Positions 7,103-49,046 of a DNA stretch of 64,000 bases are shown one piece after another. Where the stretch lies: positions 316,233 through 380,232 of the forward strand of contig NC_049994.1 in the NCBI RefSeq assembly GCF_000003815.2, given 5' to 3'. Origin of the DNA: Branchiostoma floridae. Taxonomy: Eukaryota > Chordata > Leptocardii > Amphioxiformes > Branchiostomatidae. Made by a program: the position numbers and the translations under genes. The notes under the pieces are model-generated. The model saw nothing but the letters and a program-made list of their open reading frames with translations, was not told the DNA's origin and ran no database searches. The number at the start of each line of letters is the position of its first letter. Position 1 is the stretch's first letter.

Positions 7103-7253
7103 CTGACTTCGGGTACGTAACGATAAAGACGTCATCGTCTCGGACAACGAAGTCTTGAATGGCGTCCATGTCTTCAGCACTAACGTCATCAGAAGCCATC
7201 GGAATCCCCTTGTATCTCCGATATTCAACACGGTCGTCCCCGCTGGCCGCCAT
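7103..7253 (-). CDS. Orphan first exon of a second cytosolic sulfotransferase
   Basis: A 151-base exon starts at ATG 7253 and ends in the PAPS-binding motif TYPKSG split at phase 1 before a GTAAGT donor. It is homologous to exon 1 of the complete gene at 8581-11928: both begin MAA, contain DRVEY, YKG and QDF.VRDDDVFI, and stop at the same codon. A TATAAATA box lies 38 bases or more upstream. Its later exons should lie to the left on the minus strand, but none is visible in 1-7100, which is filled with repeats. It may be a paralogue whose other exons are outside the window or in the gap, or a stranded exon of a dead copy. Confidence 0.7.
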
Positions 7254-7292
7254 ATTGGGGGTGTGAACTTGGGTAAAGGTCGCATAACACAA

Positions 7293-7300
7293 TATTTATA
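7293..7300 (-). promoter_or_regulatory. TATA box upstream of the orphan sulfotransferase exon
   Basis: On the minus strand the word TATAAATA lies about 40 bases upstream of the ATG at 7253, leaving room for a very short 5' leader. This supports the exon being, or having been, a real first exon. Confidence 0.4.
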
Positions 7301-7309
7301 GCGACCTTC

Positions 7310-8575
7310 GTCCTCAATAGTAGTTCGGGTATAAAGTATTGTATTTTAGTACTTGCAAGGCTGTAGTTATTGTTCTGTGCACCATATCGTTGGTGGAAAT
7401 TGTGGTGAATGGTAGAGCAATACATCAGTTTGGAGACTGTATAAGTTGGATTACGATTTTCTCGCTTGAATTTGCGCCTGATGGTGTTACGGGGTGCTGC
7501 CCAAGTTTGCGTCGGCTGCAGTTCCATGACCTCCGCCGGGGGTCAAATACAAACTGCTTTTGCGAGAGAACGAGCAGGCAAACTTTAGCTCATTTTCAAA
7601 TATTTTGCAGATTGTACCCTGAACTTCAACATATTGAATCCTTGTAAATTGAAGTGCGCCCTGCTAAAAATTTTGACGCCTTTGGCTTCGGGGTCCTAAC
7701 CCATGTAAATCCCCATGGCCGAAAAAACTGTGTTTCGCTACCTCAATTGACAACAAACACACAAAAGTGGTAGAGTGAAAGGAATGTGGGATTTAATTAC
7801 CTCCATCTATATGTCTATATGTTTTCAGATATCTATGGTCAGCATAACTTTAGAATCTTGAATGGATTGTAATGATATTTGGCATATGGGTACGTGTTAG
7901 GGCAGACGAAGACCGATGTCGATTAGGGCCCTCCTATTGTATAAATACTGTTAAGCCAAGGGCACAGACATGCAAATACGTGCTGTCTACGTGCCAAAAC
8001 GTGGGCAATCTTTTGGGATCCGTAAGTGGTAAGTACCGCCTCCGTACAACTCGTACGGAATCCGAAGGATTTTGGAGCACCCAGACACGCCGTAGAACTT
8101 TACGTGCAGGCAAAACTTTGTGTGCCATCGGGCTGTGGATTCGCCCCCCGTACGTGCCAGTACGGGCGACGTGCCTGCCCTGTACAGCCTGAACGTTTTC
8201 AGAAATATGTGACGGACGTGGCCTCACAAAAAAACGTACGAACAAATTGCACGCACGGCGGGTTGTGCCCTTAGCTTAAGAGAACTTCAGTTCTTGTCTT
8301 TACATTTTTGTTCGTCCATTGTTGTAGGGTTGGACCCTTAGCAGCCTGTTGGATACTTGAAGACCACAATTATTGAACTGTCAGTAAAATGTTAAAGAAA
8401 GCTGTCGTTTGCTCTTTGTTCTGGTTGATACTTAGCAGGCTGTGTTTCGGTCTTCAGTAAGCTGACGGTATGGAAAACCTAAGTCCTCAAATATTCTACT
8501 AACCTCTACTATTAAAACAAATTGGAAAATACAACAACAAATTACACTGACAATACAAATTTTATGTTCTTTTTT
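7310..8575. other. Spacer between sulfotransferase copies, no gene seen
   Basis: Only short shadow frames on both strands. No splice-consistent coding segment, RNA gene or recognisable repeat could be supported. Confidence 0.5.
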
Positions 8576-8580
8576 CCCTA

Positions 8581-11500
8581 TTACTGAAAGTCAAAGTGAA
8601 GCCCAGTTGGCCCAAGTTTTTCCTGGTAGAAGGTGTCAAACCATTTGCTCTGTTCGTCATTGAAGTGAGACTTCCAGTCACCAGCTACACCTGCAAAAGA
8701 GTATACTTTATCTATTTTGGAGATTTTGCGAAGAAGATCAGAAGACACACTTAAAGAAGAAAAAAAAAAGAAAAAAAAGATAACGTACTGATAATATAAT
8801 TTGTTAATCATAGCAGTCAGTTATTACTGCGTTCAACATTGTGAAAATTTGTAAAATGTAGGAACTTTACTCCATACCTTTTCTTAAGAAAGTTCCCTTG
8901 GAGGAGTCAAATATCCCCGCTTTGGCCTCCTTCCCTGAAACTTTGTTCGTGTTAGGATTTGTCGCCATCTTTTGGAATTTGCTCTCTTCAACGACCTTGT
9001 CAATCACTTCCGGGGTCACGGGCCACTGCAGGAACTCTGCCACTTTCTCCACCTGCTTTCGGGTGTTCTGTAAGAAAATAGATATTTACGACATTTCCTT
9101 TAGTTTGTGCTTTTGTAATTTTATTCATCAATGTGCAAAGTTACTAGTAGTTTCAAGTCATTGTACTGTGTTACCAAGAATATGTCATTGCATAGTACAT
9201 GCAGTGTTCATGATAATTCGTTTATTACAGATACATACACATGTCCGAGGGCTAATTGATAAACTCTACATTACCATCACTACAGGAAAATTAGAAATTA
9301 AAACTGGCAATGACAAAGATAAGTGCAATAATGTAAAATAACATATTATTGGGGTTGGGAATTATACGACGTCATACTTAATAATATTGTACATCGAACA
9401 ATTAAGACTTAGAACATAGGGAAGTTTTGTCATTTGAAACGTATGGTGTCAATAATATCAGCTTGCATTAAAAGCTAGATAGCTAGTCCTATGAAATATT
9501 GCAACTAATGTGGAATGTTTCATGTTTACATGGAAATTAAACAACATAATCAGTGATTCAGTGTTCAGTGATCATTACAACTTGAGAAGTTTCAGAGGAC
9601 TGATCGAAAGCTTGTTGGTATTTTTTGTACGGAAAAAAGGTGTTAAAATTGTAACATAATAATCAGTGAGTTAACACAATATTCCATAAAATAGCCTAAC
9701 CTTTTGCAGGTCCTCGTACCGGAGGAACAACACGTTTGGCAGGTCCTGATGTTTCCACCAACCCAGCACGTGGTCGTGCCAGGCTCCCCTGCTTACTGGT
9801 AAAGTTATAAGAGAATGGTTTTACTGTAAATATGCAGGACAAGATTTTCTTTTCTAAAGACCTTGAATACATCAAATGAAGCTATATTTCATCCCCTGAT
9901 CTCGAAAGATCTGACTCTGGGAAAACAATGCTAAATGCTCACCTAAATAAAGGTTACCGCATAATTTTTGGAGCCTTTGCATGTCAAAATCTAAGCATGA
10001 ATCTCTAAAACGTTACAAAGGGCCATTTTGCTACATGATCCCACGTGACATATATTGCATGATGGGAGGAAGTGACGTAAGCAGGAATTTATGTACTCCT
10101 ACCTTCTCCGTTGACAAACTCCTGTAGAAACTGTTCCCAGGATGTGGGGGTCTTGAGCGTTGAACACATGAAGTGGAAGTGATAGTAGGACACTGCAAGG
10201 TCTTTTGGGTTCCTGGCGACGTAAATTACCTGTAACAAAATATAGTATATTATAACAATTGACTTCATAACGTAACAACATTGCAAACACACAAACGCAC
10301 CGAGTTATGCACTCACATACACACAAGGACACAGCGTTGCATACACACACTTGCGTACACACACATACATAGACACACTCAAACACGCACACATACACAC
10401 ACATGCACAAACACATACACACATGTACATACATACATACACTAACCTATGTGTTCGCACATCCTCCTAACGCGCGGTCCCCAACGGCATTAGCCTATGG
10501 GGCCCTGCTATCTCATGCCCTATCAGTGGTTATAATGATTGTCGCCACAAACCAGCTGTCAACCAATCAGAGAATAGGCTTTTCTTTGGCTTTTTGTTGT
10601 CGCAAGCTGTCTCGCAAAGGCCGCTGGGAAGCTATCAGCCAATCATGTTACGTATTACATAGCTCCATCCTCCTACGCTCGATCCCCAACGGCTGACTGC
10701 CCATATAAGGGCAAGCTCATTAATTATTAATATTTATAAGTAGGGCGGTCCCTAACTGGTCTGAGTGCACAAGATAGCAAAGGTAAACACAAGGCGTTTT
10801 GACACGACTGTGGTCCCTCTGCGTAGGAGAATGGTGTTCGCATAGTATCACACTTGTATTATATGACACACAGACATACAGAACATGCACTGTACACTCT
10901 GGTACGTGCAATTCTTAATTACATATGCACACATACACACTTATTATACATGATGTACACACGGAGTACCTTTCACTTACTTTCCCTTTCCCTTGCGTAA
11001 GTTGTACCGGTGCGTGACTAAAGTGAAGATGACTTTTCATCATTCTTGGTGAAGGCACTTCAGTTAGTTTCCGAAAGGCGGCGCTGTCTCCAACCTTCTG
11101 TTCAAAGTAAGGAACCAGTTCGTCTTGTTCTTTCCGGTCAGTTTTTGACACGTCACCACCAAAGTGAAGCAGAGACACGATGCGCTGTAGCCAAGCTGTC
11201 CCTGTACAAAAGATGAAGCAGGAAAGTGTATATACTGTTTTGATAACTTTATTACAAGACCATGAATATGACAGGGGGCTTATTACAATAAAAAGTAAAG
11301 CAGTGGTATACAGAATTGTACACTTTTGCACTGTTTGCCGTGCGTTCTATTTCGAACGTTTTCTTCTTGTCCGTCGGCAAAAAAAATGTCACACAATGAC
11401 GTCTAAAACACGTTAAAAACAGACGGAGCCGAACCTCCGCTTAGAGAGTTCGTTATATCCAAGACGCAAGTCAGACATTACATCAGTTGGAGATAGGGCG

Positions 11501-11928
11501 TATGTTTGTCAATGTTATCATTTTCAAACAGACCGTCTTCAGTAAGCCGTTCATCTGGCAAATGGTAAAACGCCGGCAGAAAGAGTTTTGCCATTTAATC
11601 GACAATATCCAAAAAATACGTATTAACCTATTTGATATGCTAAGTTAAATATCAATTTCAATCTAATCTACTGATGTCCTGGTAGGCACCATGTTGGATA
11701 TAAACAACAACAGCGATCGCTCGTACAGTCCTTGCATTTTTGTCACAGTCAGACAATACGAGAGACAAACCCACCTGACTTTGGGTACGTTATAATGAAG
11801 ACGTCGTCGTCTCGAACGGTGAAGTCCTGAATGTCGTCCATGTCTTTAGGGTCGAGGTGGCTAGGGAGAGGAACCCCCTTGTACATGTGGTATTCGACAC
11901 GATCGCGATCGTCCACGCCGGCCGCCAT
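8581..11928 (-). CDS. Cytosolic sulfotransferase (SULT family), six coding exons
   Basis: The product should transfer sulfate from PAPS to a hydroxyl or amine of a small acceptor in the cytosol; the substrate cannot be told. Coding exons are 11775-11928, 10981-11201, 10103-10229, 9701-9795, 8878-9067 and 8581-8690, all with GT/AG borders and matching phases, giving 298 residues, the usual SULT length. Visible motifs are the 5'-phosphosulfate loop TYPKSGTAW (Lys50), the catalytic His109 in MMKSHL, the 3'-phosphate motif YVARNPKDLAVS (Arg131, Ser139) and C-terminal RKGVAGDWK. The 127- and 95-base exons equal those of vertebrate SULT genes. The 221-base second exon corresponds to two vertebrate exons (about 126 plus 98). 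The ATG at 11928 is chosen because the orphan copy aligns from the same MAA. The KTVE-type dimer motif is only partly recognisable (HFNDEQSKWFD). Confidence 0.93.
10262..10445. repeat. CA/TG-rich microsatellite in sulfotransferase intron 2
   Basis: A 180-base stretch of interrupted ACAC, CACA and CATA words. The frames read through it on both strands are low-complexity Val/Cys or His/Thr repeats and are not genes. Confidence 0.85.
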
Positions 11929-12817
11929 TTTTGGTGTCAGTTCACCCCGGAACAGACTAGACACGCCTGTCACGAGATTCCCCCAGGCAGGAATGTACCA
12001 TTCCAAGGGGGTAGGTCAGAAATTTCAGGACATGACTTGTTTATGTGTTTATTGAAAGGAAATGCAGTAGAAACAAGAGTTCGAAGACTTCATACCTCCA
12101 TGAAATATTCTGATTATGCAAGATAATCTATACCTGGTTATGTAACGTTACAACTTAAACTAAATTACACGTTATACAAGTCTCTATTTTGACAATTCAA
12201 TCATTTTCTACATGTGCTTAGACTTTCTATGACACTTGAACATTAATTATGCAAATTAGGGAGTCGATCATTTGAATAATGGTTATATGCTAATATTCCA
12301 CCTGTCACAAAGTACATACGTTACATGCGCTTGAGTCCAATAATGGAAAACACTGTAAATATAGATTTTCCTGCATGGAATGTTCCCATCATATTCAAAT
12401 TGTTACTTTCTCAATTTCACTGTATAAGACCGTACTTTATATTTATATAATATGTGTTAGAAAATGTTTGTTATGTGAAGATTGGCACAAAAAAGCACAA
12501 TCATATTTGCATCGAAAATGAAATATTATCTCAATAACAATACACAAGCTTTCCAGATATATAAAACATCTGCATCCCAACGGACAAATCATCGAGGGAA
12601 ATTCCACTGTATTTTTCTCACATTCTCTGCCCTAGTTTGACCTTTGTGAAAGACATGTGAAGGGTATTAGATAATCTGTAATGATATGTATAACACAATA
12701 CAATTAAAGAAAAGTAANNNNNNNNNNNNNNNNNNNNNNNNNNNNNNNNNNNNNNNNNNNNNNNNNNNNNNNNNNNNNNNNNNNNNNNNNNNNNNNNNNN
12801 NNNNNNNNNNNNNNNNN

Positions 12818-13029
12818 AGCTCCCAGCTCGCTGGAAGAATAGTAGAAATTGGCTAAATAGCTATATATAATATAGACGGAAAACACCGTGACCAGCGGAG
12901 TTGGTTGGCTGAGGAGTACAGTTTGTCGCAAACTGTACTCCTCGGCCAACCAACTTCTCTGGCGTGTTTTCTGCCTATTTAGCCAATTTCTACTATTTTT
13001 CCAGCGACCTGGGGAGCCTGGTAGAGGCT
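12818..13029. mobile_element. Fold-back MITE, family 1 (gap-truncated)
   Basis: A long inverted repeat centred on GTTTGTCGCAAAC, with arms containing GTAGAAATTGGCTAAATAG and its complement. It ends in AGCCTGGTAGAGGCT. The left end abuts the gap. Related copies lie at 15444-15650 and 17378-17584. Confidence 0.8.
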
Positions 13030-13309
13030 TTCAGAAAAAAATTAAAATTGACTTGATTTCAAAATGGGCGTTTTGGGCTACATGATCCCGTCGTATCGTG
13101 AGAGCTTGATATCAATTTTGGTCAAGTTATATGAAATATTGATAATGTATGTCTCGGCATTGTTCGAATATATCAAAAGGACAACGAGGGTCTTTGTACA
13201 CAACCAAATGGGGAATGCCTACAGATACGGATATACGTTTGTAAGTGCATTGTAATAACTTTGTTATCTATGCTATGTGTTTTGCAAATACTTCACGTTT
13301 GCGACTGCA

Positions 13310-13425
13310 TTTGTGAGCAGCGACACCTATAGCTGCAGTACAAAGTGAACCAGTCAGTATTGCCCTGAGAAAGGTGAGAGAAGCTCATCGAAACATCGGG
13401 TGAATTTGGTTTTTTAGTGACTTGG
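13310..13425 (+). repeat. Dispersed element end with hammerhead-like core
   Basis: Contains GCGACACCTATAGCTGCAG followed by CCCTGAGAAAGG, a GGTGAG/CTCATC stem, CGAAAC and ATCGGG. The same order of words occurs near 19040 and 27760. It resembles the ribozyme-bearing ends of Penelope-like elements, with a core deviating from CUGANGA. Confidence 0.4.
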
Positions 13426-13429
13426 AAGT

Positions 13430-14150
13430 CTAAATTATTATTCAGAAACTATTTACATGGCATTACGAGAGTCCTCTGTACATGTAGTGAAGCTATGATA
13501 AATGGTAGGTTCACACTCGCCTCCGTGTTTTTTATAGCAGGTTTGACAAAACAGACATTGGGAAGGCAACGTTAACCTTTTTTGCTAGAAAAAGATCTAG
13601 CTACACGACAAAGCAACGACTGTTTTAGGTATGCCGCCAAGCTTCTGTCGTAAAGTTTTCGCACGACGAATGTGGAAGAACCCTTTCACGAACTGTGCTT
13701 TGATTTACTTTTAGCGAAAATGGCTACAAGTAAATTTGCTCGTGATCAGCAGTTTATTACAATTCTGCACACAAAAAAGTTTGACAATATCAGTGATAAA
13801 TCATGGAATACATACATACAGGGGGGGGGGGCATGGATTTTTTGCATGATAAACTGCTCAACTAGTTACGTGTTCTATCTGCATAGCGTGGCGTCACAGA
13901 CGTGGTGGCTTGCTTTGAAACGGACTGGAGCTAGTCAGTCGAAAAGTTGAGGAGTCCAATTTCTGCGTTGGAAGTAACATTTCTGTTCTGATCCAGAATG
14001 ACTTTTACTAAAACAGATGAACTTTCAAATTAATTCATGGATGATTTGTGGCATCATCTACAGCGCTTACTCTTATAACATCAATGCGAAATATAGAGCA
14101 ATCAATATGCTTTTTTCCTTCTGTTGTTATTGCATTCTCTTGACCATGTT
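13430..14150. other. Gene-free stretch downstream of copy A
   Basis: A homopolymer G run at about 13821 and short shadow frames only. This is presumably the 3' flank or UTR of the gene ending at 14154. Confidence 0.4.
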
Positions 14151-14153
14151 GGA

Positions 14154-17100
14154 CTATGGCCTGGGCATGATGTGGACATCAGCGCACTCATAGAACATGG
14201 CGGGAGCCTGGGGGTTCTTGGTGACGTACACAGCCTGGAGGGTCGCCATGCCATGTCTGCGGACACAAAGATTTTCCCTTTCAGTTTCAAGGAGTTCCTT
14301 GTTTCTTAATCCCAATGTAAGGCCACAGCAAGTAAAGTTTATGGATGACATCAGCGCGCGCATTAATTTTCGCCTGATTTCAGAAAAAAACAAGGATGTT
14401 TATCTTCTGCAGGAATGGTCAACATGACGTTAAAGCACCAAAATGGGCAAATATATTGTGTTGTAGCCTAATAATTGTACTTGTAGAAGTGACACTTGCG
14501 AGGTACCCAGGACTGTAGTTGTAGAAAACTTGTTGGATAGTTGTAAAAGTGACACCAATATGGAAGCCATGAGTGTGGTTACCAACTTTGTTTGTGATGC
14601 CACACTAGTGTCACTTTTACCACACCATTACATGTCTTAGATACAGGGATGGGTGCCTTGTTGGCTCTGATACCATGTTTTGTCCCTTTAATTCTTTTTA
14701 CAACAGCCATCACAACGTTATGGTGCCTATTTTTGAAACTGCAGTCATCTTTTTTTTTTCACCCATCTTGTTTTTTTTTTCGCCCTATCGCACTATTTTT
14801 GCAGTCTACAGACGATGTCATCCATACAATTTACTTGCTGTGGCCTAACACCAGTTCTAATTTCCAAGCAGATCCTATTGTGTCATAAGATAGTATCAAA
14901 GCTGGCCAAGGAGTATAGCCGGCCAAGGGGAGTCAAACGGGCGTATGCACACTCCTAGGTCGGCTTCACTCCTCTGATAGCTTTTGGTACTATCTTATGA
15001 TACCGTAGGCTCTGCTTGGAGATTACACTAGGTCACCTTAATCCGTGGGATCTCCTATATCCGTTGTCAGTTTCAAAAGTAGGTTATGTTAATTGTAGGG
15101 ATAACGAGTCGATGGGACATAGTTTCAAACTTATGGTATAAGAGCTGATATAGGTTACTCCAGTATTTGAAAATTCTGCAGTTTGACATAAAAACGGACA
15201 AATGTAACCCATCGATGCGCGCGCGGATGTCATTCATACATGTATATATAATCAAACCAACATGTTTAATGGTAGTAAGGCTAGAGAACGTTAACGTCGG
15301 ATTTAGCTTTAACATCACTTAATCTGAATTTAACGTTAACGTCATAACTTAGTCTCCATGTAGACCCCAAAGGTAGAATTTACAAGAAGCATAGTCTACA
15401 AAGGGCACTTTAGAATACGAACCGAATATATGGAAAAAAATGTAGCCTCTACCAGGCTCCCCAGGTGGCTGGAAAATGCATATGGTAGAAAGTAAGTGGC
15501 TAAACTGTCAGAAAACACACCAGAGGGGTTGGTTGGCTAAGGTCGCAAACTGTACTCCTCAGCCAGCCAACTCCTCTGACGTGTTTTCTGTCTTTTTGGC
15601 GACTTTCTATCTACTATTTTTCCAGCGACCTGAGGAGCCTGGGAGAGGCTAGAAAACAAGGCACATCGAGTAGATGATTGAGGATAGGGATTGTCCATTA
15701 CTCACCCCATGGGATGTGGGACAGTGATGTTGGTGGAGTAGAGAGTCAGGGACGGTTCACCCATGTCTTTGATCATGGCCAACTGTTTAAACTCCCCCTC
15801 TTCCCCCTCCCGCATGTTGATGGTGAACATTCCCTGTTAGAAAAAGAGTGTAAGAGATCGGTTTGCATACAATCCACTGTCATAAACTGTTAGATACGTA
15901 ACCTATGCTAAATGAAGTGACTGAGGTGTATTTTGTTCATTCGTATTGAATTGAGTACAGCTGATTTTAGCAGGCTTGATACCACATGCAAATTTTTCTA
16001 TAGATTTAAAAACTGTCATGTTACAAAAATACATGTAGGCAGATACATAAAATATCGCAATAGAAGGGAAAATACTGTCACGTGTAGCCCCGCGTGATTG
16101 TATGAAGATTCACGTTTGTTATTCTGTATCGTTTTAGTTGAATTCTAAAATTTATCATACATTCCTATGTTGTAGCTTGTGTTGACCATTTGTCAACCAT
16201 TGTGTTTTTGTAGTGTGACGTAATCTCCAAGCAGGTCCTACGGTAGCATAAGATAGTATCAAATGCTAGCAGAGGAGTGAAGCCGGTCTAGAAGCCTTTG
16301 GCCGGCTATACTCCTTAGCCATCTTTGATACTATCTTATGGCCCCGTAGGGTCTGCGTGGAGACTAGTGTCACCAAATGTTCTATACTCCTGATGTCACC
16401 TGTGATTGTAACTAAGTGATACTGTACGTGGGAGCTACTAAGTCTAAGTCTTGTTGTTTTAGTTGACTTATAAACTTATTTGATTACTTCTAAGTTTGTA
16501 TACCAGCTACACGTCACTTTGTTATTTGATTTCTTGTTTTTTTTTTATTTCATGTCGTTATCATTATCTCTTGACTTTGTTATTCAGCGTTTTGTAGCCA
16601 TGTATGTGTGTCCTTATTCTGTTTGTGTACATGAGGAGCAGACCTCGATAAGCAGGGTCTGCTTTCCGTCTCATTGTGAATAAAAAGTAAGATAGAAAGT
16701 CTAAGTCTAAGTAAGATACTGTACCGGTGAAGAGGAGGTCCAGTGATCCAGGTTCTTCTGAAGGGTGACAGTGAAGTTCTCCCCTGCCCTGGGAACGGGA
16801 ACATCAGGGGCTATAAACAAGAGTTGCTGATCCAACTTAATTTTAACGATATGTCTGTTACAACGCTCTATACGAATGTGTGCAAATATGAAATGTATCA
16901 ATTGCCTATATGCATATAAACATTACATGTATACATATACAACTATACATTGCACAAGCACGTGCACATGTATGTGGNNNNNNNNNNNNNNNNNNNNNNN
17001 NNNNNNNNNNNNNNNNNNNNNNNNNNNNNNNNNNNNNNNNNNNNNNNNNNNNNNNNNNNNNNNNNNNNNNNNNNNNNATATAGGTGACCCCAATAGTTGA

Positions 17101-20100
17101 AAATATTTCATTTTGATATAACAACGGATATAGGTTACCCATTGATGCGCTCGCGGATGTCATCCATGCATGTATGTATACTCAAACCAACATGTTCAAT
17201 TGCAGTGAGGCATTAACATTAACATATCGTTGGATTTGACTTAAGCATCACTAAATCTGAATTTCACGTTACTAAATCGTAACTCAGCCCCAACGTGGAG
17301 GCCTAAGTTAGAACTTACAAGAAGCATAATCTACAAAGGGCACTTTAGAATACGAACCGAATTTATGGAAAAAATGTAGCCTCTACCAGGCTCCCCAGGT
17401 GGCTTGAAAATGCATATGGTAGAAAGTAAGTGGCTAAACTGTCAGAAAACACACCAGAGGGGTTGGTTGGCTAAGGTCGCAAACTGTACTCCTCAGCCAG
17501 CTAACTCCTCTGACGTGTTTACTGTCTTTTTGGCCACTTTCTATCTACTATTTTTCCAGCGACCTTGGGTGCCTGAGAGAGGCTAGAAAACATGGCACAT
17601 TGAGCAGATGATTGAGGTAAGGGAATGTCCATTGCTCACCCCATGGGATGTGGGACAGTGATGTTGGTGGAGTAGAGAGTCAGGGACGGTTCACCCATGT
17701 CTTTGATCATCGCCAACTGCTTAAACTCCCCCTCTTCCCCCTCCCGCATGTTGATGGTGAACATTCCCTGTCAGAAAAAGAGTGTTAAAGATCGGTTTGC
17801 ATACAATCCATTGATAAATATGAATTAAATGCAACTGATTTTAGAAGACTGCATATTTGACTGAAGATTTGAAACTGTCATATAAAAAAAAATACATGTT
17901 GAAAGATACATAAAAGATTGCAATAGTAGAAAAGATACTGTCACTTATAGCCCCGCCTGATTGTATATAGTACTAAAGATTCACTAAATATGTTATCTTG
18001 TATTGTTTATATATAGTCAGACGAATTCTAAATTCTATCATTTATTTCTAGGTTGTAGTTTGTGTTATCATTTGACAGCCATTATGCTTTTGTATTGTGA
18101 CGTAGTCTCCAAGCAGATCCCACGGTAGCACGAGATACTAGTAGTATCAAATGCTGGCAGAGGAGTGAAGTCGGTCTATATTCCTTTGCCATCTTTGATA
18201 CTATCTTATGGCCCCGTAGGGTCTGCGTGGAGACTAGTGTGACGAAATTTTCTATACTCCTGATGTCGCCTATGATTGTAAATAAGTGATATTGTAAGCT
18301 ACTTGGGAGCTACTAAATCTAAGTCTAAGTAAGATACTGTACCGGTGAAGAGGAGGTCCAGTGATCCAGGTTCTTCTGGAGGGTCACCGTGAAGTTCTCC
18401 CCTGCCCTGGGGAAGGGGAACATCAGGGGCTATAAACAAGAGTTGCTGATCCAACTTAAATTTAACGATATGTCTGTTACAATGCTCTTCATTAATGTGT
18501 GCAAATATGAAATGTATCATGTGCCTATATGCATATAAACATTATATGTATACATGTATGTGTGTTTGCGTGTGCATATGTATTTATTTACACATTGTGT
18601 ATGTGCATATGTGTGTATGTGTCTGTGTCTGTGTCTTTGTGTGCGTCTGTGTTTACATATGTGTATGTGTGTGTGTGTGAGTCTGTGTGTGCGTATGTGT
18701 GTGTGTGTACGTCTGTGTACGTGTACGTCCCGGCAGTCTTTCAATGGGTGTTTGTATGCGAACTTTCAAACCAAGAAAGCTTAGGTTAAGTCTAGGGTAA
18801 GCGTAATATGATTCTAATGAGTCCTTCTTATTTTTACTAATTCAAATATGATTTAGTTAACACTACGGTCTTACATGAGAGCGATGCCGGTATGAGGCAT
18901 CGGCATCCTCCCGCCACACGGGCCGGTCACCAGGGCGCAGTCATCCGCTCCTGCAGGCAGGGGAACACAAACCGTAACGTTAACGGTCGTAAAAAGTTCC
19001 ATCACCTAGGTAAGTCTTTAAATAACCGCATATATGAAAGCAGTGACACCTATAGCTAGAGCTGCAGTGCAAGGTGAACCAATCAACTTTGCCCTGTCCT
19101 GAGGAGGGTTACGCATTGCATGAGGACCATCCTATTTCTACCGGGGCCCCTTCCACTCGCTACCCTAAGAACAATCATTTTATAGGATAGTGAGCGTAAT
19201 GAGCCCCGGTAGAAATAGAATGGTATATATAGCCTCCGTAGCAGGCACTCTGAGGCTTTTTTTTTCGGCTCATAAGCCAGAGTGCCTGCTACGGAAGCAA
19301 ATGGTACCCAGGCTAGGTTACGAGGGTCATCGAAATTTCGGTACTCACAGACGGTTACGGAAAAAAAATTCAATGGGTTACCGAAAAGCTCGCTGTTCAA
19401 AGATAATGAATGATGTTAGTAATATCTGATAAGTGAAGGGTCCTGAATGTGTAACCGGGGCTTTACCGCGACGCCCCTGAACAATACATGATTTATTTTT
19501 AGCGCCACTTTGATCAGCTACCACGTGTTTACTGTAACCAGTAAAGTTTGTTTTCACAGTAAACAAAGTGCCTGGCATCGGACTGTACCAGACTGTACCC
19601 TACCTAACGTCATCTGACCCAGTTTCAAGACACCTCGTGATGACCTCGTGCGCAGGTTACTACCATATAGCCTCCGTAGCAGGCTCTCTGATGCTTTTTC
19701 CAGCTCACAATACACTTTTGCGTGGCATTTCTTTTTGTACTGGGGCCCCTGATCGCAGGCTGCCCTGATTCAGGGGGCAAAAGTGTATTTTGAGCCGAAG
19801 AAAGCCCCCAGAGAGCCTGCTACGGAGGCTCACTACCGTACCAGACAAACAACCTCGCTATGCACACACTTGTTATGTAACGTTTAGAGAGCGGAAAAAA
19901 CAATGGGGATCTCATGCATTATACCGTCTGTTTTGAACAGATAGCACAAATAAAATCCATTGAAGACTTATAAGTATTTGTTCCCGAAGATTGCTCATTG
20001 GTGAACAATAGACCGATAAAATGACAGAAAAGGAAGATTGAACATGTGGGAAAGGGGGCGTGGCCTTCAATTGTAAATGGCCGTTGTTTTGTGTTTCAAG

Positions 20101-20631
20101 CTCTAACCCAAGGGCGTGTACTAATATGTTTCATGAATTCATTTAGTTCTCCTCTTTAGTACAGCGTTTCAGTGCCCATTTGAGTAACAAGGATGTTGTA
20201 TGACATATAACGTGCTCGAGACACCTCCTAGATCACGGGATCCCGTTTTCATAATCACGTCCCTTCCGAAAGCAGCTCCAACCAGTTCGCCTTTCGCGTC
20301 ATTCGACCCGGGGTCGCCAACTTACAACCAGCGAGTCGGAACCACGAAATCAACTGTGAGACTGCTACCAGTTGAGCCACAGGGACACCACATGTTTCAA
20401 AGCAAAGTTACAATTTTCGTAACAATTCGTAATTCAAACGTTGCGTAATAATTTTCCTGCATTTCCTTGAGCCAAGAAGTTCTGTCGTTTCTTAATATAT
20501 TCTTCAACGAAGATACTTTTCTCACCTGCTTTGTTTATTCCCATCATGGACCCCCTCTGAGGAGGGCTGATCATGCACATGTGGGCCCAGGTACCGGCCA
20601 GGCACATCAGGAACACCGCCACAGTCTTCAT
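14154..20631 (-). CDS. Secreted LPMO-like (X325/BIM1-like) protein, copy A
   Basis: Five exon types join in phase: 20526-20631, 18875-18950, 18343-18406, 17640-17767 and 14154-14256. They give 158 residues. A hydrophobic signal (MKTVAVFLMCLAGTWA) ends so that the mature chain begins His-Met-Cys. Then come PPQRGSM, a DDC.LVTGPCGG segment, a TVTLQKNLDHW strand, a GEPSLTLYSTNITVPHPMG segment, GHGMATLQ and the closing FYECADVHI. Cysteines 19, 40, 47 and 149 could form two disulfides. His17 (mature His1) with His126 or His122 could form a copper histidine brace, as in lytic polysaccharide monooxygenases and fungal X325/BIM1 copper proteins, which share the PCGG and YxCAD pattern. That family link is from memory and unproven. 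Exons 3 and 4 occur twice (see 15706-16788). Confidence 0.8.
14859..15026. mobile_element. Fold-back MITE, family 2
   Basis: Inverted ends built on TTTCCAAGCAGA and TCTGCTTGGAGA, with inner arms AAGATAGTATCAAA and TTTTGGTACTATCTTA. It sits in intron 4 or the duplicated region of gene A. Related copies lie at 16214-16373 and 18096-18244. Confidence 0.75.
15444..15650. mobile_element. Fold-back MITE, family 1
   Basis: Near-perfect inverted repeat beginning AGCCTCTACCAGGCTCC and ending GGAGCCTGGGAGAGGCT. The centre is GTCGCAAACTGTACTCC, and the inner arms are AGGGGTTGGTTGGCT and AGCCAGCCAACTCCTCT. Confidence 0.85.
15706..15833 (-). CDS. Second copy of exon 4 of gene A
   Basis: A 128-base exon with the same protein sequence as 17640-17767 and the same phases (0 in, 2 out). 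Its AG acceptor and GTGAGT donor are intact. It lies between the second exon-3 copy and exon 5. It could be an alternative exon or the product of a tandem or assembly duplication. Splicing all four copies in series would break the fold. Confidence 0.8.
16214..16373. mobile_element. Fold-back MITE, family 2
   Basis: Ends TGACGTAATCTCCAAGCAGG and CTGCGTGGAGACTAGTGTCA are imperfect inverted repeats. The inner arms are AAGATAGTATCAAA and TTTGATACTATCTTA. Confidence 0.8.
16725..16788 (-). CDS. Second copy of exon 3 of gene A
   Basis: A 64-base exon reading AGENFTVTLQKNLDHWT and then SSSP, identical in protein to 18343-18406. Its acceptor lies inside a CCC-rich tract (CCCGTTCCCAG) and the donor is GTACAG. 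The homologous exons of copies B and C fix this acceptor because they share the leading split Gly codon. Confidence 0.8.
17378..17584. mobile_element. Fold-back MITE, family 1
   Basis: Duplicate of the element at 15444-15650, at the same place relative to exon 4. It was therefore copied with the surrounding segment and is not an independent insertion. Confidence 0.85.
18096..18244. mobile_element. Fold-back MITE, family 2, internally deleted
   Basis: Counterpart of 16214-16373 in the second half of the duplication, shortened in the loop between GTGAAGTCGGTC and TATTCCTTTGCC. Confidence 0.8.
18549..18732. repeat. TG-rich microsatellite
   Basis: Interrupted (TG)n with CTGTG and TATG words for about 180 bases in intron 2 of gene A. 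Frames in it are low-complexity artefacts. Confidence 0.9.
19036..19112 (+). repeat. Truncated copy of the hammerhead-like element end
   Basis: Shares GTGACACCTATAGCT..GCTGCAGTGCAA with 13310 and 27760 and has CCTGAGGAGGG, a standard CUGANGA core. It breaks off where an inverted-repeat element starts at about 19112. Confidence 0.35.
19112..19298. mobile_element. Two overlapping fold-back elements
   Basis: An outer inverted repeat pairs CCATCCTATTTCTACCGGGG (about 19127) with CCCCGGTAGAAATAGAATGG (about 19204). Adjacent, AGCCTCCGTAGCAGGCACTC at 19231 pairs with GAGTGCCTGCTACGGA at about 19280, around a T-rich loop. Confidence 0.75.
19669..19830. mobile_element. Fold-back MITE, family 3
   Basis: Terminal inverted repeats AGCCTCCGTAGCAGGCTCTC and GAGAGCCTGCTACGGAGGCT are complementary over their full length. 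An inner pair is AATACACTTTTG and CAAAAGTGTATT. It is the full-length relative of 19231-19298. The word ACTACC flanks both ends, offset by a few bases. Confidence 0.85.
20300..20388 (-). repeat. tRNA-like SINE head
   Basis: On the minus strand the sequence reads GTGGCTCAACTGGTAGCAG, resembling a Pol III A box, followed about 50 bases on by CCCGGGTCGAATGACG, a weak B box. No tRNA cloverleaf with a paired acceptor stem can be drawn, so it is read as SINE and not as a tRNA gene. Confidence 0.4.
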
Positions 20632-24701: not shown

Positions 24702-27700
24702 CTACGGATAGTCGATGTAGAAGTCTGTACACTGGTAGTAGACGGGTGCGGCCTGCGGGTTCCGTGTTATGTACGCCACCTGTATGGTATTGATGAGGGC
24801 CCTGCCAAAGCAAATTGGGAGAGAAGTTTATACTAGGGCTGGTACCGGTACAGAAAATTCAGGTCCAGGTCCGGTTCAGGTCCAGAGGATTAGGTCCCGG
24901 TCCGGACCTGAACCTGGATCTAATTCAGTATGTGAAAACGTGTGAATGCGCAATACTAAGATCAATGGTCCATTCCGCTACAAAGAAATCTGTTTGGTGG
25001 AGTATTTGAGTCCCACTGGCTACAAGGCTAACTGCCACTATACGTTTGACTGTAAAACTTGGTAGAGATTACAATAAACTCTACTCTGCTTCGCTCTTGT
25101 TATTTTCGTCAATCTGTAATCCCCAAACATGTGAATTTCTGCCGATTAACCTCTTCATTTTCTAATAGATCTAACATCCGGTCCACCTTCCGGTCTACCG
25201 AATCTTTACAGGTCTGTTTTTTCTGGACCAGTCCAATTAGAACATCCGGTAGCGGTACCCATCCCTAGCTTATACAGTTACCTTTGTTTTTTTCATAAAT
25301 CTTCAAGACAATCAAACATACTAAAAATACTAAAATCACTGATTAACCAATTGAAGTACTGCTATAACTTCTTGAAATACGTTAGCTTAAGAAATACCAA
25401 CATAACGTTATACGATACAGAAATTCTATACATTTGTCGTCAGTAGTTGGTAATTTGTAATATTGGCGAACGCCCATGATACAGGCATGTCACACATAAC
25501 ACACAAACACATGCCTGCTCACAAACACAAACAAACACACACACACACACACACACACAAGCACATACTGACGTCCACACATATAATTGCACACAAAGAC
25601 ACGCCCACACTCACACACAAACACAAGGAACAGTACTTACCCTGTAAATTTAGGAATGGTGATGTTGACAGAGTACAGGGTAAGGGACGGTTCACCATTG
25701 TCGGGTATCTTTTCCAGCGGTGTGAATTTCCCCGTTCTGCCTGCCCGGAAACTGATAGTGAACTCTCCCTACAAAAAATAGAAAAAAGGCCTAGACATTC
25801 TTCAACCAATACAAATACAAATGAATGAATATATAATACACTTCCCTAAAGGAATCCTGTTCAAAACAGAGTATTAGACAGTTAGAATTTTCATCGAGCA
25901 GTAACTACTTTTTAAAGGTAAAAACCCGTGCCTCCAAATGAATGAATGAATGAATGAATGAAGACCTTTATTGTACAATTTTGCCCAACCGGGCTAAGTA
26001 CAGGTCACAACAAGTCAGGATATATACATACATAAAAGTGTCACAAATCTAGTCTAACACAAAAGTTCGGCTTCTTCTCGCTTCTTGGTAATAGTGAAAA
26101 TGTAGGACTGTATGGGTTTCGCTATTGTCGGTTTGTCAAAACGCATGAGAAATATAAACTTGTCAGTGCTACTCATGTGTCTAAAATGAGGGAATCTACT
26201 TTCTATATAACTAAATAGAGTATTTCTATCATTCGCATACATATCGCAATCAACAGTGAAGTGCACTTCATCTTCTACCATGTTTGAGGTACAAAATTGG
26301 CAGACGCTTTGTTCTAGCCTATCTCAAGCAACGTCGAGATTATTGACCAAGAACCACGTAAGGCCCACAGAAAGATCAAACAAGCAGTTCACATCGAGTT
26401 GGAAGGTGCCCAAGTCCTACGTATCTCTACTCCGCAAGGAGGCAGGGTGAGGGGCAGAAGATCCACGCAAGTCTCGACCTAGTTCTCGCAACTCTCGCGA
26501 GAACTAGGCCACTCCGTGAGCAAGATGGACTGATAGCCATCGAAAATTTGGAAGTACGTGTGTTTACATTTAAAAGGTAGTCACTGCATTATGAAAATTC
26601 TATTAACTGTGTGCATACGTGACTAATGAATCAAAACTGCATTAAAGATTAAAAATTTTGTGAACATTGATAAATGCTTTAAAGTTGTAACACAATTCAG
26701 TGTTGTGCATTTTATTCAGATTGAGGCCCAAACCGTGTTGGTCATACTTCGTAAGAATGATAGGATAGGACGTCCCGTCCCTTGGATAGGACATAAGATG
26801 GAGGTCCCGTGTCTGGGGAGAGCCATACTCCTGACACGCTAAAGAACCCACAACACGTGCGATGATGCGGTGTGAGTGGCTCAAAACCTACAGTCTCTTG
26901 GCCGCACATGGGGCAATAATTGTCGTATTGAGGTCACCTGAGTGGCGCCGAATGGCAGCTCGCACCAGACCCTTGTGATTCAGCCCCGCCTATTGTAAGC
27001 TCCTCGCAATTCAGCCCCTGGTTGCCAAGAGAGAGTAGTCGGCCCACCCAATAACAATAAAAAATAACGATACTGTACCGGAGATGATGGGTTATAATGA
27101 TCCAGGTTCTTCTGTATCGTCACGGTTTGACTGGTCCCTGTCCTGTTAACAACGGTGAACACAACAGTTATACATCGAATATAACCCGTAACTAAATGGA
27201 AAATTGATCATTCTTTTTTTAATCATTCTTTTTTTCCAAACACAAGGTACAAACATAGAACAATAATACTGAAAGGACATGTGGAACACAAAGAAATATA
27301 AATAAAACTAGAAAACAATCAGGATAACTCATAGCAATGAACACATTTGGCTATAACAAGGAAATGATAAATTGAAGCTGTATTATCTGTCAGTCAGTCT
27401 ATACAGACTATGACACTTATCTACGCAAAAAGAGTATAAGCCAAAGAGACGACTGTATTAATAGCATGTTATTCACTAAAGCTATTTCCCCCCATTGATC
27501 AATGTGTTTATTTATTTCATCTTTAACATAGTTATACATATGATCAAACCCGTAAAGAATTTGAAAATTAATAATTCTTAATTGACAATGAAGACATAAA
27601 ATCCCCTTCAACAGGGCAGTTCTGACTAATTCACATTAAAAAAACAGCAGTTATTTGATCCCTCCTCCTCCTGTTATTTGACAACATTTATGCGTAACGT

Positions 27701-29354
27701 TGTAAGTCACTCATGTAACGTTATGTGGCCGAATTCTAGACACCGCGTTATCTGTGAGCAGCGACACCTAACAAGTTATAGCTGCAATGCAATGCAGACT
27801 AGTCGGAATTGAATATCATGACGAAGGTGACAGACTGTCACCAAAACGTCGGTTTCGAATAAGAATAAAGAGTCGTAAGTCGTTATTCATCTGATATTAC
27901 AAGGGAATAAGTCAGATTTTCAATGCAATACTTATTTTCATGACAATTGAACGAATAGTTAGTTGTATCTGGTAGTTATACTTACAGAAAGGCTATAGTT
28001 GCCTTTTTGGGGGGAGCTGGCCTCTGTCCACAGGGTCCACTAGTCAGGCCACAGTCAGGAGATCCTGAAACACAAAGACAACAGCATTCGTCATCGAAGG
28101 TAAACATCTAAACATATCATGTTACTACCAATTTTATTCCAAAAAGTCGCTGTTTTAGAGGTAAAGTACATACCTTAATTTTTCGATATCTCACAGCACA
28201 TTTTGATCACGGAGAATGACCCAGTCTCAATCTCGCGAGAGAACACGAGAATAGGTCAGGCTTGCGTGAATCATCTGCCCCCCCCCCCCCCCGAGAAGGG
28301 GTAGGTAGGACTTGGGCAGCTCCCGACCCTCATTTTGGTTCATATGTTGAATATATAATGTATTTTGTAACATTATGGTATTATTTATTTTGTCCAGATT
28401 TGATACTTGAAAATTCAAGATGGATATAACGGGGGGGGGGGGGACCAAAGTCCGGTAAGGTCCAATGTCCGGTAACGTTTTAAAAATCATTGTTGCGGAG
28501 ACATGCATGGGTAGCTGCGCATGATAAGTACAACTAGTTATGGGCTAAACCTTGTTGTAAATAACTGCAAAGCGGAAGTATGTGTTGAAGTTCGTAAGTC
28601 CCAGTAGATAAAGATCGAAAAAATTGCACAAGTTTCACGCCTTCCGTACAGGCTGACGAGGGAACTTGCTGAGAACATGGTCTTCGAAACTGTTGAATTA
28701 TACTTCGTACAATGCATCATGTGATAATATGTCACCACATACATGAAGGTTATTTATTAAACTTTCCATTGAAAACACAGATGAGTCTTGTCTTTGTCTT
28801 TACCTTGGATAATCGGAGCTAAAATGATGACCACTGTTTCCACTCCATTGTGGCGCGCCATTTTGAGTACATAGAAGACTCCATTCAATAAGTCGTAGCA
28901 CAGTCACGATACGTCAAATCGAGCTATTATATGTGTCCCCGTGATCTAAAAGAGTCAGGCAAGCGTGTGTAGGTCAGTTGAGATTTCAAAAAGTAGTTCA
29001 AGACGAGATTCGTTTCGTCAAAGTTGACCTTCTAAGTACTCATTTTGGCGAGCGTACCTCGTGTTTTACGGTCTGCATGGGGGTTTCCAGGTGACCGATG
29101 TGATACTTCCGGATCAAACCAACTACCCAAAACAAAACACGCAATACTCTACCAATGATTACCGATTGAGTACCCTCAGTTTGGAGAATCGTATGTATCT
29201 CAGTCAAAACACTTTAGACAGCTTAATTAAACAGACCAGATCTAGGTTTTATCAGTTATCTTATTAAACCTTATTGGTTCATCCCAACTGACCCGAGACT
29301 TTGCACTACAAGTGACCGAATGAAAGTTTTACCTCTGAATATTATCTGTCATAT

Positions 29355-38400: not shown

Positions 38401-38720
38401 TTGTTCAACTTCTGGCGCATTTTGCATCAAAACATGGGTTTTCTCAGGTGGGTATGACATAAATGAAATACAACACGGTGTATTCCCTATCACCCTCGGT
38501 CCCAGCCATCCCGCGGGTCGGATCGCCCTCCGGCCTTCGGACGATCCTTCCCGCGGTCGGGTGATACCTCAGGTAATACAGAATACATTGTGTTGAATTC
38601 TTTATTTATCTCACCGGGTTTGTTTATGCCTGTCATCGACCCCCGCTGATGAGGACTGATCAGACACATGTGGGCCCAGGTACCGGCCAGGAACAACAGA
38701 AACACCGCTACGGTCTTCAT
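24702..38720 (-). CDS. Secreted LPMO-like (X325/BIM1-like) protein, copy B
   Basis: Exons 38615-38720, 27986-28064, 27079-27142, 25641-25768 and 24702-24801 join in phase to 158 residues. Exon 1 encodes MKTVAVFLLFLAGTWA followed by His-Met-Cys-Leu and PHQRGSMTGINKPG. Exon 2 has SPDCGLTSGPCGQ, exon 3 TVTIQKNLDHY, exon 4 GEPSLTLYSVNITIPKFT and exon 5 QVAYITRNPQAA ending YYQCTDFYIDYP. The four cysteines are kept, but the GHGMAT histidine of copy A is replaced (TG-ALINTIQ) and the PHP histidine is also lost, so a two-histidine brace is unlikely. Assigning exon 1 across a 10.5-kb intron that contains a transposase gene is inference. An alternative first exon at 28.8 kb has the same phase. Confidence 0.7.
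24834..25267. mobile_element. hAT-type non-autonomous element
   Basis: Begins TAGGGCTGGTACCGGTAC and ends GGTAGCGGTACCCATCCCTA. It is flanked by GTTTATAC and GCTTATAC, an 8-base duplication with one mismatch, as expected for hAT insertion. It contains GGTCCAGGTCCGG runs. It lies 32 bases upstream of the exon 5 acceptor of gene B, close to its branch-point region. It is non-coding. Confidence 0.8.
25528..25625. repeat. CA microsatellite in intron 4 of gene B
   Basis: (CA)n followed by interrupted CACA words. A homologous, longer CA/CATA repeat lies at 47817-47945 in copy C. Confidence 0.9.
25937..26330 (-). mobile_element. 3' end of a LINE, minus strand
   Basis: The minus strand encodes CQFC..NMVEDEVHFTVDC, DKFIFLMRFDKP and KKREEAEL, matching the C-terminus of the LINE at 41-43.5 kb. 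It ends with ACAATAAAGGTC and an (ATTC)n tail. It is a dead, 5'-truncated copy. Confidence 0.85.
27755..27860 (+). repeat. Dispersed element end with hammerhead-like fold
   Basis: After GCGACACCTAACAAGTTATAG comes ATGACGAAGGTGACAGACTG, with a perfect 6-base stem GGTGAC/GTCACC, then AAAACGTCGG. It is two substitutions away from a hammerhead core. It belongs to the same family as 13310 and 19036. Confidence 0.4.
28805..28863 (-). CDS. Possible alternative first exon for copy B
   Basis: On the minus strand ATGGCGCGCCACAATGGAG opens a frame of 19 codons plus one base, ending at CAAG|GTAAAG. The phase fits exon 2 at 28064. It lacks the signal peptide and N-terminal histidine of exon 1 at 38.6 kb, so a product using it would be cytosolic or broken. 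It sits at the end of a long inverted repeat and may be a promoter borrowed from that repeat. Confidence 0.2.
29362..29472. repeat. TA microsatellite, two runs
   Basis: (TA)n at 29364-29390 and 29415-29472, separated by CAAGAAGTTCCACAGATCTACC. Confidence 0.95.
29525..31770. repeat. Tandem ~130-bp units each with two GTATCATT-NN-AATGATAC palindromes
   Basis: Left of about 29.8 kb the motif centre reads CA; right of 30.0 kb it reads TG. The two sides are therefore opposite in orientation. Units on the right include ACTGTCGGAATAGCTTAGTC, CTTTGTCCTTTGAATGTTGC, ACCAGTTGGGATTCTTGTAT and then a second palindrome. Regular copies run from about 31090 to 31770 with spacings near 120-135. Small unrelated insertions lie at 30247-30345 and 30412-30455 (the latter a hAT fragment). 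Confidence 0.8.
32340..32716 (+). other. Possible 5' UTR intron of the pogo-like gene
   Basis: GCG|GTAAGTTGAC at about 32350 is a good donor, and TCATTGTCAG immediately before the ATG at 32717 is a good acceptor. A non-coding first exon starting near 32.2-32.3 kb, at the edge of the inverted repeat, would fit. This is inference. Confidence 0.3.
32717..35101 (+). CDS. Pogo/Tigger (jerky-like) DDE transposase, two coding exons
   Basis: Exon 1 (32717-34660) and exon 2 (35012-35101) join in phase across GAC|GTAAGA and CCACAG|GAAGG to 677 residues. If unspliced, the frame ends at 34708. The N-terminus (MASRRKKYNQEDMDRAL, then AKEYGIPQSTLHDRV) is a pipsqueak-type helix-turn-helix, followed by a CENP-B-type second helix-turn-helix. 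The DDE core shows YNADETG (Asp177), LILDQHYSH (Asp284) and HFLQPLDVSVF (Asp320), so all three acids are present. The tail has five to six Thr-rich repeats, a CPTCNAACTVC cluster and a long Lys/Glu coiled coil. ATG 32717 is chosen over the upstream in-frame ATG because the motif begins there. It is intact, so it is either an active element or a domesticated gene; no terminal repeats were identified. Confidence 0.85.
35102..36380. other. Gene-free stretch
   Basis: 3' flank of the pogo-like gene. No gene, RNA or clear repeat is seen. Confidence 0.4.
36390..36673 (+). CDS. Candidate two-exon start of an unknown small gene
   Basis: ATG at 36390 opens MAETIVATVPPPIAVLFALG, which is hydrophobic at its end. 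A phase-1 donor (CTTG|GTATAG) joins an acceptor at GTAGCAG|GCCCG (about 36568) in phase. The second exon reads PKEIDPKARLLEHKN and on to HDFILIAAI before GTGAGT. The phases agree, but no family is recognised and no further exon was found. The open frame through the putative intron in another frame weakens the case. Confidence 0.25.
37098..37122. promoter_or_regulatory. Paired CRE-type palindromes
   Basis: TGACGTCA occurs twice, four bases apart (GACGTCATTTTGACGTCATC). Related TTACGTAA and TTACGTCA words lie near 37270. These are consensus CREB/ATF sites; no adjacent transcript is identified. Confidence 0.35.
37610..37638. repeat. TA microsatellite
   Basis: Uninterrupted (TA)n of about 28 bases. 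Confidence 0.9.
38119..38176. repeat. Inverted repeat
   Basis: CATGACCCTGACG and CGTCAGGGTCATG are 13-base complementary arms around a ~30-base loop. Confidence 0.6.
38380..38600. mobile_element. Fold-back element, family 4
   Basis: ATACAACACGGTGTATTCCC pairs with GAATACATTGTGTTGAA, and TATCACCC with GGTGATA, around a GC-rich centre. A diverged copy lies at 61868-62050. It ends about 15 bases left of exon 1 of gene B, in the first intron. Confidence 0.65.
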
Positions 38721-47115: not shown

Positions 47116-47292
47116 CTGTCTGCTGCTGCTCGCTGCACCCCTCCCAGGTACATCCTACAGAGGCTCGATGAAGAAGTCTGTACACTGGTAGAATACGGGC
47201 GGAGCCTGGGGGTTCCTGGTGACGTACGCCGCCTGAAGGGTCCCGATGTCGGAATGCCTAAAGCAGATTGATTGGGAGAATAGATCTTTTCC

Positions 47293-47945: not shown

Positions 47946-49046
47946 GACGTCCACACAAATAATTACTCACACACAAACACAATGAACAACACTTACGCTG
48001 TAGGTTTAGGAATGGTGATGTTGACAGAGTACAGGGTAAGGGACGGTTCACCATTGTCGGGGATCTTTTCCAGGAGAGTAAATCCCCCCTTCCTGCTTGG
48101 CCGGAAACTGATAGTGAACTCTCCCTACGAAAATGGAAAATGACCACCGACATCCTCAACAAACACACATGCATAGATATAAATAGCAAGCTTTCTTGCC
48201 ACGACAGAAAGCACAGTGAATTTTCTATCTGTATATAACCGCCCTTTGGCGTAGCACACCAGCTTTGGCTTAGGTCACATTTCAACAAAGGGGCCCGGCC
48301 GGGCAGCTTTCTGGAGCGAAAAGAATGATATAAAAGACATTAAGATACACAAAATGTCAAAATAAGATTCAAGGGCATAATTTTTATATTTCTATAGGTA
48401 TACAATTTGATTTTTCGTTTCTTAAAGCATCCCGGCCGGGCCCCGGTTTGGAAATGTGACTCCAGCCTTTGCAGGCACGCGGCGCGGCAGCAGCTGGTTA
48501 TATTACGATGAACGACCCGTCAGACCTAGCCATCTACAAGCGTTCTTTAAAACTATCTAGAGAAAATGCCCATACTGTGCTTGGTGATAACAAATTCCAC
48601 TCTACGATAGTTCTAGGTACCGGTTGGTAACTCTGGTACTTGAAGTCATGAATGTTTCTTGTTCTTTTTTTAGTTGGCATTAGATACTTATCAGTCGGTA
48701 CGACCACTATGGTCAAATATAAACTACAAAAAGTGGATGCAGTATGAATATTAAAACTCTACTAACTAAACAATATAGGAGAATAATAAAACATCCATAT
48801 AATCAGGTAAGGCTAAACATGAGTGACACTATCTTTTCAAATTGTTGAAATTTGTGTTGTGCACTTTATTCTAAGTGAGTCCCAGAACATTGGGCATCCT
48901 TCGTAAAAATGATACTGTACCGGAGATGATGAGTCATAATGATCCAGGTTCTTCTGTATTGTCACGGTGTAACGGGACCCTGACCTGTATAACAAAGGTT
49001 AACACAACATTAATATCTTGATCAAAATGTCAATCACCGCAGAGCT

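Follow-up and report, generated by a model that had tools for sequence, protein, structure and literature searches.

Three genes of Branchiostoma floridae, here termed genes A, 2 and 3, probably encode an animal branch of secreted histidine-brace proteins that lies between the X325 and AA15 families, with a putative copper site formed by His1 and His60 of the mature protein and with Phe or Tyr130 at the axial place. They were studied in a stretch of 64,000 nucleotides (NC_049994.1, positions 316,233 to 380,232), hereafter the window, which belongs to contig C16 in the coordinates given below. Gene A occupies 14154-20631 of the window on the minus strand, gene 2 lies wholly within the window and gene 3 starts beyond it, the three forming one cluster of complete five-exon genes.

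The exons of gene A have AG/GT borders and matching phases and join into a single frame of 158 amino acids closed by a TAG stop, as an earlier note on this DNA had proposed, and the PCGG, GHGMAT and FYxCAD motifs which it listed are all found in the precursor (the last as FYECAD). Its count of at least three copies is likewise borne out, with exons 1 and 2 of gene 3 located outside the window. Genes 2 and 3 repeat the exon structure of gene A with 58–60% identity, and gene A is therefore not a chance reading. Across the three proteins 82 of 160 alignment columns are invariant, including His1, four Cys residues, the NLDH motif and Asp151. The ratio of nonsynonymous to synonymous divergence (dN/dS, Nei–Gojobori method, NG86) is 0.330/1.294, about 0.25, between genes A and 2; for exons 3-4 of genes 2 and 3 it is 0.114/0.141, leaving little constraint visible for that pair.

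Each gene would encode a secreted single-domain protein of ~142 amino acids in the superfamily of X325 and the lytic polysaccharide monooxygenases (LPMOs). Once the signal peptide is removed, His1, through both its amino group and its side chain, and mature His60, in a conserved NLDH[WY] turn, would most likely coordinate a single Cu(II) as a histidine brace. Phe/Tyr130, from the [FY][FY].C[AT]D strand, would take the axial position. All three proteins lack the Asp that occupies the fourth equatorial site in X325, and their copper site should for this reason be open, as in LPMOs. We infer the fold, copper binding, ligand identity and function from sequence. Our committed guess is a copper protein that works outside the cell, close to a glycan of a surface or matrix. 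A redox role of LPMO type and a copper-delivery role of BIM1 type fit the evidence almost equally well, the predicted open site slightly favouring redox.

Signal cuts and a divergent paralogue

Signal cuts were predicted with a von Heijne weight matrix, and all scores are to be read as predictions only. The top cut falls between TWA and HMCM in gene A (11.1, runner-up position 0.3), between TWA and HMCL in gene 2 (12.5, runner-up 1.1) and between SWA and HLCL in gene 3 (11.9, runner-up 4.6). In a divergent paralogue on contig C17 it falls between GNG and HLCV, with a narrow lead (7.7, runner-up 6.2). The best predicted cut thus exposes an N-terminal His in all four proteins, narrowly in the last, and the cut exactly before His that had been proposed for gene A agrees with the matrix.

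The C17 paralogue is absent from the earlier note and occurs in two copies. Its exon 1 translates to MDLYVTALALVVFLAVLLSTGNG followed by HLCVIEPRQRGDFDISK; PPCGG and QQNYNHY are in exon 2 and GYMDVAW is in exon 3, while exon 4, seen in copy b, contains VHCSHCVLRFRYNSHKPGEQIFYQCADIAI. Because the frame of copy b is broken within exon 2 and copy a yielded no exon 4, the C17 protein in all tests is a composite of the two copies. The segment H[ML]C.I.P.QRG, directly after the predicted cut, is common to the C16 and C17 groups despite very different signal peptides. The paralogue appears to be a larger protein, in which an LPMO-like domain is followed by a Pro/Thr-rich linker and a further region; downstream frames resemble repeated beta strands by eye, and three stretches of this downstream region gave no match to Pfam.

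Whole-genome protein queries gave convincing matches only in the C16 cluster and in the two C17 copies, counts which are lower bounds; matches elsewhere (C1, C4, C13, C14) are weak, with expect values (E) of 0.29 or worse. An exon-by-exon scan of the genome with the X325/BIM1 family PF20238 gave 0 matches, as did its 14 controls. No relative was confirmed in viral contigs, which were also searched with LaX325, or in other genome contigs, some of the search patterns being poor and mostly derived from signal peptides.

Candidate copper ligands

The copper ligands of the insect enzyme TdAA15A are reported as His1, His91 and an axial Tyr184 (PMC5823890), and the 5msz sequence carries these residues at those numbers. 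In X325 proteins a Gly-rich loop close to the C-terminus contributes an Asp as a further ligand (PMC7529816, PMC7467343). In LaX325, represented here by the 138 residues of PDB 6ibh, this would be Asp122 in the GGDG loop, going by the sequence and by the wording of PMC7529816.

Only two histidines are common to all four animal proteins, namely His1 and the one within [KQ]N.[DN]H[WY], mature His60. Considered as the second brace ligand, the late GHGMAT His listed in the earlier note does not hold up as the best candidate and was dropped. Gene 2 reads GALINT in this region and has no His there, which makes the GHGMAT residue a poor second ligand; gene 3 reads AHSD and, like gene A, carries a His at mature 110, and the C17 protein has His residues nearby (VHCSHC), so that a late His is present in three of the four proteins, against four of four for the [KQ]N.[DN]H[WY] residue. 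Conservation and strand order point to His60 as the probable brace ligand. In a MAFFT alignment GENFTVTL, the His loop and PGMFTI lie opposite the His91-bearing segment of AA15 (GSTISVDL...IGFFEF), but the residue paired with His60 is AA15 His86. In a local alignment YTVG, directly after C17 His58, pairs with the YTVG shortly after LaX325 His49, and the Cys-to-His spacing is 29 here versus 27 in LaX325.

Between NPQA and the following Cys, the loop has no acidic residue in any of the three C16 proteins except the E of YEC in gene A, which adjoins the Cys. The position of the X325 Asp is non-acidic in genes A, 2 and 3 and is a Glu in the C17 protein, in an alignment equalled by 16 of 1000 shuffles. 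At position 130, three residues before the Cys of the last strand, gene 2 has Tyr, and A, 3 and C17 have Phe; Tyr and Phe are both reported as axial residues in AA15 and AA10 LPMOs (PMC5823890). As sequence positions, His1, a candidate second His and an axial-type Phe or Tyr are at plausible places in all four proteins.

Family relationships and rival readings

The curated cut-offs are 27 bits for PF20238 and 23 bits for LPMO_10 (PF03067). The gene A precursor scores 27.9 bits against PF20238 (E 3.8e-6), 0.9 bit over the cut-off, and mature gene A alone 26 bits, 1 bit under it; gene 3 reaches 24.9 bits (E 3.1e-5), 2.1 bits short, and the C17 composite 23 bits (E 1.2e-4), also below. The cut-off is thus reached by one of four proteins, where the reference LaX325 scores 92. 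When the halves of mature gene A were scanned with hmmscan, residues 1-90 gave no match and the C-terminal 58 amino acids gave 17.6 bits, so that much of the PF20238 signal comes from the last strand. This C-terminal strand aligns with LaX325 at E 1.4e-4 and a probability of 52% (hhalign), with none of 120 shuffles as good; for whole gene A against LaX325, 11 of 1000 shuffles were as good.

The resemblance to X325/BIM1 put forward in the earlier note therefore stands in part, with gene A, gene 3 and the C17 protein matching PF20238 at marginal scores and gene 2 not at all; kinship of the animal proteins with this family is supported, at the edge of what the scores allow. The features shared with X325/BIM1 (Cbi1; LaX325) are a post-signal N-terminal His, P..RG, a later Cys-Gly and a C-terminal strand of the TIQVVY...YQCADV kind. 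In contrast, the Gly-rich-loop Asp is missing from the C16 proteins, the candidate second His of the animal proteins lies outside the GHAP turn by sequence alignment, and the animal genes here have five exons. That these are true X325/BIM1 members, i.e., capped, redox-silent copper binders which hand copper to a Ctr1-type importer, is rather unlikely. PF20238 is the sole Pfam family matched by genes A and 3, the C-terminal strand is closest to LaX325, the C17 Glu aligns with the X325 Asp, and Bim1 is described in PMC7529816 as not redox active, all of which suit membership; it is opposed by the non-acidic capping position of the three C16 proteins, by Pfam scores that are marginal or absent, and by a second His that is not aligned by sequence.

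The C17 protein matches AA15 and LPMO_10 about as well as X325. Residues 64-159 of the composite match LPMO_10 85-183 at 21 bits (E 6.1e-4), below the cut-off, and we regard its third listed Pfam family (E 0.084) as a chance match; genes A, 2 and 3 gave no LPMO_10 match in Pfam at E up to 10. For the C17 protein, 1 of 1000 shuffles was as good against AA15 5msz, 16 against LaX325 and 360 against AA10 2bem, while for gene A the figures were 55 against AA15 and 324 against AA10. By way of likeness to AA15, the C17 protein has ...C..CVL...CADIAI, and a strand-His-strand order is shared, as is an aromatic residue three positions ahead of the C-A-D Cys; unlike AA15, the animal proteins here are ~50 residues shorter with fewer Cys, and the pairwise scores of genes A, 2 and 3 are insignificant. 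AA10 (CBP21, 2bem) is similar by eye in an HGYVESPASR-like start, an FTWKLTARH-like strand with its His and an NAFYQAIDV-like end, and is joined by the sub-threshold C17 match, but pairwise scores are insignificant and the animal proteins again shorter.

It is possible, though doubtful, that the proteins are minimal animal LPMOs, enzymes oxidising chitin, cellulose-like material or another matrix glycan. The LPMO_10 match and AA15-like C-terminus of C17 are consistent with this, as are the presence of His1, His60 and F/Y130 in all four proteins and the missing capping Asp in those of C16. A mature length of ~142 amino acids compares poorly with the 192 aligned residues of 5msz, however, genes A, 2 and 3 lack an LPMO_10 match, and no substrate-binding surface was recognised, although none was looked for.

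Several results weigh against a histidine-brace branch between X325 and AA15. Gene 2 matched no Pfam family at E up to 10, and against PF20238 a consensus built from the three C16 proteins reaches no more than 21 bits. Genes 2 and 3 are insignificant against X325, AA15 and AA10, with 191 to 825 of 1000 shuffles as good (534 for gene 2 and 199 for gene 3 against 5msz), and the middle segment is no better than chance against the same three families (45 to 108 of 120 shuffles). In the MAFFT alignment His60 falls on LaX325 Ala66 rather than His49, and on a gap in CBP21; equating the NLDH His with X325 His49 by alignment was given up, as the pairing is given by none of five scoring schemes, nor by MAFFT. 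A C-terminal match of the C16 profile to AA15 (2 of 120 shuffles) was discounted, since it lands on a different AA15 Cys.

The chance-level alignment of the middle region would also suit a secreted beta-sandwich protein without metal, whose N-terminal His is an inherited relic and whose His60 and Cys pairs are structural. An N-terminal His is frequent in proteins, secreted or not (PMC10952591). We regard a metal-free protein as unlikely, and the retention of H[ML]C.I.P.QRG after the cut, between C16 and C17, speaks against it. The bacterial copper proteins CopC and YcnI, with a histidine or mono-histidine brace that includes an N-terminal His (PMC8424229), resemble the brace proposed here; the listed Pfam matches, which extend to E 10, include no such family. 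A search of solved-structure sequences with gene A, or with a profile of A and 2, gave chance-level matches only.

In PMC10952591 (Table 1 and text), X325/BIM1 is tabulated as fungal and animal LPMOs as AA15, and an LPMO orthologue group is reported as common to all tunicates studied (PMC8704543). Among the literature matches listed, judged by title and the start of the abstract and covering few subscription papers, none had X325/BIM1-like proteins in animals as its topic; such proteins may already carry labels in automatic databases. Histidine-brace evolution would be easier to order with an animal branch that matches X325 and, by way of a divergent paralogue, also AA15 and LPMO_10, and such a branch would offer a natural test of whether a copper carrier becomes an oxidant once its capping carboxylate is lost. 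More speculatively, and with less confidence than the assignment of genes A, 2 and 3, there could be a chordate family of minimal (~142 amino acids) histidine-brace copper proteins joining fungal X325 to animal AA15. Its C16 members would lack the capping Asp, have an axial Phe or Tyr and perhaps be redox-competent, and its C17 member would keep a carboxylate (Glu) in a domain of a larger protein. If true, open and capped forms of one site would coexist in a single genome.

The gene cluster and its surroundings

Features of genes A, 2 and 3, of the local duplication and of the C17 paralogue (window positions unless a contig is given)
Feature	Position	Strand	Basis
Gene A exon 1: signal peptide MKTVAVFLMCLAGTWA, then HMCMISPPQRGSMMGINKA(G)	20526..20631	-	translation; weight-matrix cut score
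Gene A exon 2, holds PCGG	18875..18950	-	translation
Gene A exon 3 (copy a): AGENFTVTLQKNLDHWTSSSP, holds candidate second brace His, mature His60	18343..18406	-	translation, cross-protein comparison
Gene A exon 4 (copy a)	17640..17767	-	translation
Gene A exon 5: (G)HGMATLQAVYVTKNPQAPAMFYECADVHIMPRP, then stop	14154..14256	-	translation
Second copy of exon 3 (copy b), same protein	16725..16788	-	synonymous changes only
Second copy of exon 4 (copy b), same protein	15706..15833	-	synonymous changes only
Self-repeating stretch, halves matching in pieces of 98-300 nucleotides at 82-95% identity, holds both exon 3-4 pairs	15148..18558	.	
Assembly gap (N) inside self-repeating stretch	16978-17077		
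Gene 2 exon 1: MKTVAVFLLFLAGTWA then HMCLISPHQRGSMTGINKP	38615..38720	-	
Gene 2 exon 2	27986..28064	-	
Gene 2 exon 3, NLDHY	27079..27142	-	
Gene 2 exon 4	25641..25768	-	
Gene 2 exon 5, without late His, VYYQCTD	24702..24801	-	
Gene 3 exons 1 and 2, beyond window	G000:C16:397069-397174 and 392977-393052		
Gene 3 exon 3	48921..48984	-	
Gene 3 exon 4	47997..48124	-	
Gene 3 exon 5, AHSDIGTLQ...VFYQCTD	47155..47257	-	
C17 copies	G000:C17:5610482 downwards, and C17:6428291-6431152		

Between exons 4 and 5 of gene A lies a second exon 3-4 pair, copy b, absent from the earlier note, which differs from copy a at 5 of 192 nucleotides, all five changes being synonymous. As exons 3 and 4 are jointly phase-symmetric, splicing could include both pairs without loss of frame. 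A duplication arising from the assembly or from haplotypes is just as probable, because a larger block (window 6861-15136) recurs to the left of the window with a copy of exon 5, at G000:C16:299258-299356, likewise new here. The block contains the last exon of gene A along with sulfotransferase-like exons and matches G000:C16:280023-300729 piecewise at 86-96% identity, representing either a local segmental duplication or unmerged haplotypes. The introns flanking both exon 3-4 pairs (14860-15030, 16220-16370, 18110-18240) contain inverted repeats that look snapback-like by eye, TCTCCAAGCAG...CTGCGTGGAGA and related ones.

The sulfotransferase-like exons, 6984-7295 and 11749-12015 (-), resemble cytosolic sulfotransferases in DDVFI[VI]TYPKSG, a motif of these enzymes; neither single frame matches Pfam at E up to 0.01. 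Elsewhere in the window, a tnp2 transposase frame at 53200-55269 (-) matches Transposase_21 (E 4.2e-14) with an assembly gap inside, and a protein kinase frame at 57787-59238 (-; Pkinase, E 1.2e-22), preceded by a stretch that looks coiled-coil-like by eye, is interrupted by another. A long open frame of 795 amino acids at 41008-43395 (+) encodes a reverse transcriptase (RVT_1, E 5e-37) that looks to be of the non-long-terminal-repeat type. Within the first intron of gene 2, on the opposite strand, lies a DDE_1 transposase open frame of 684 amino acids (32654-34708, +), presumably Tigger/pogo-like.

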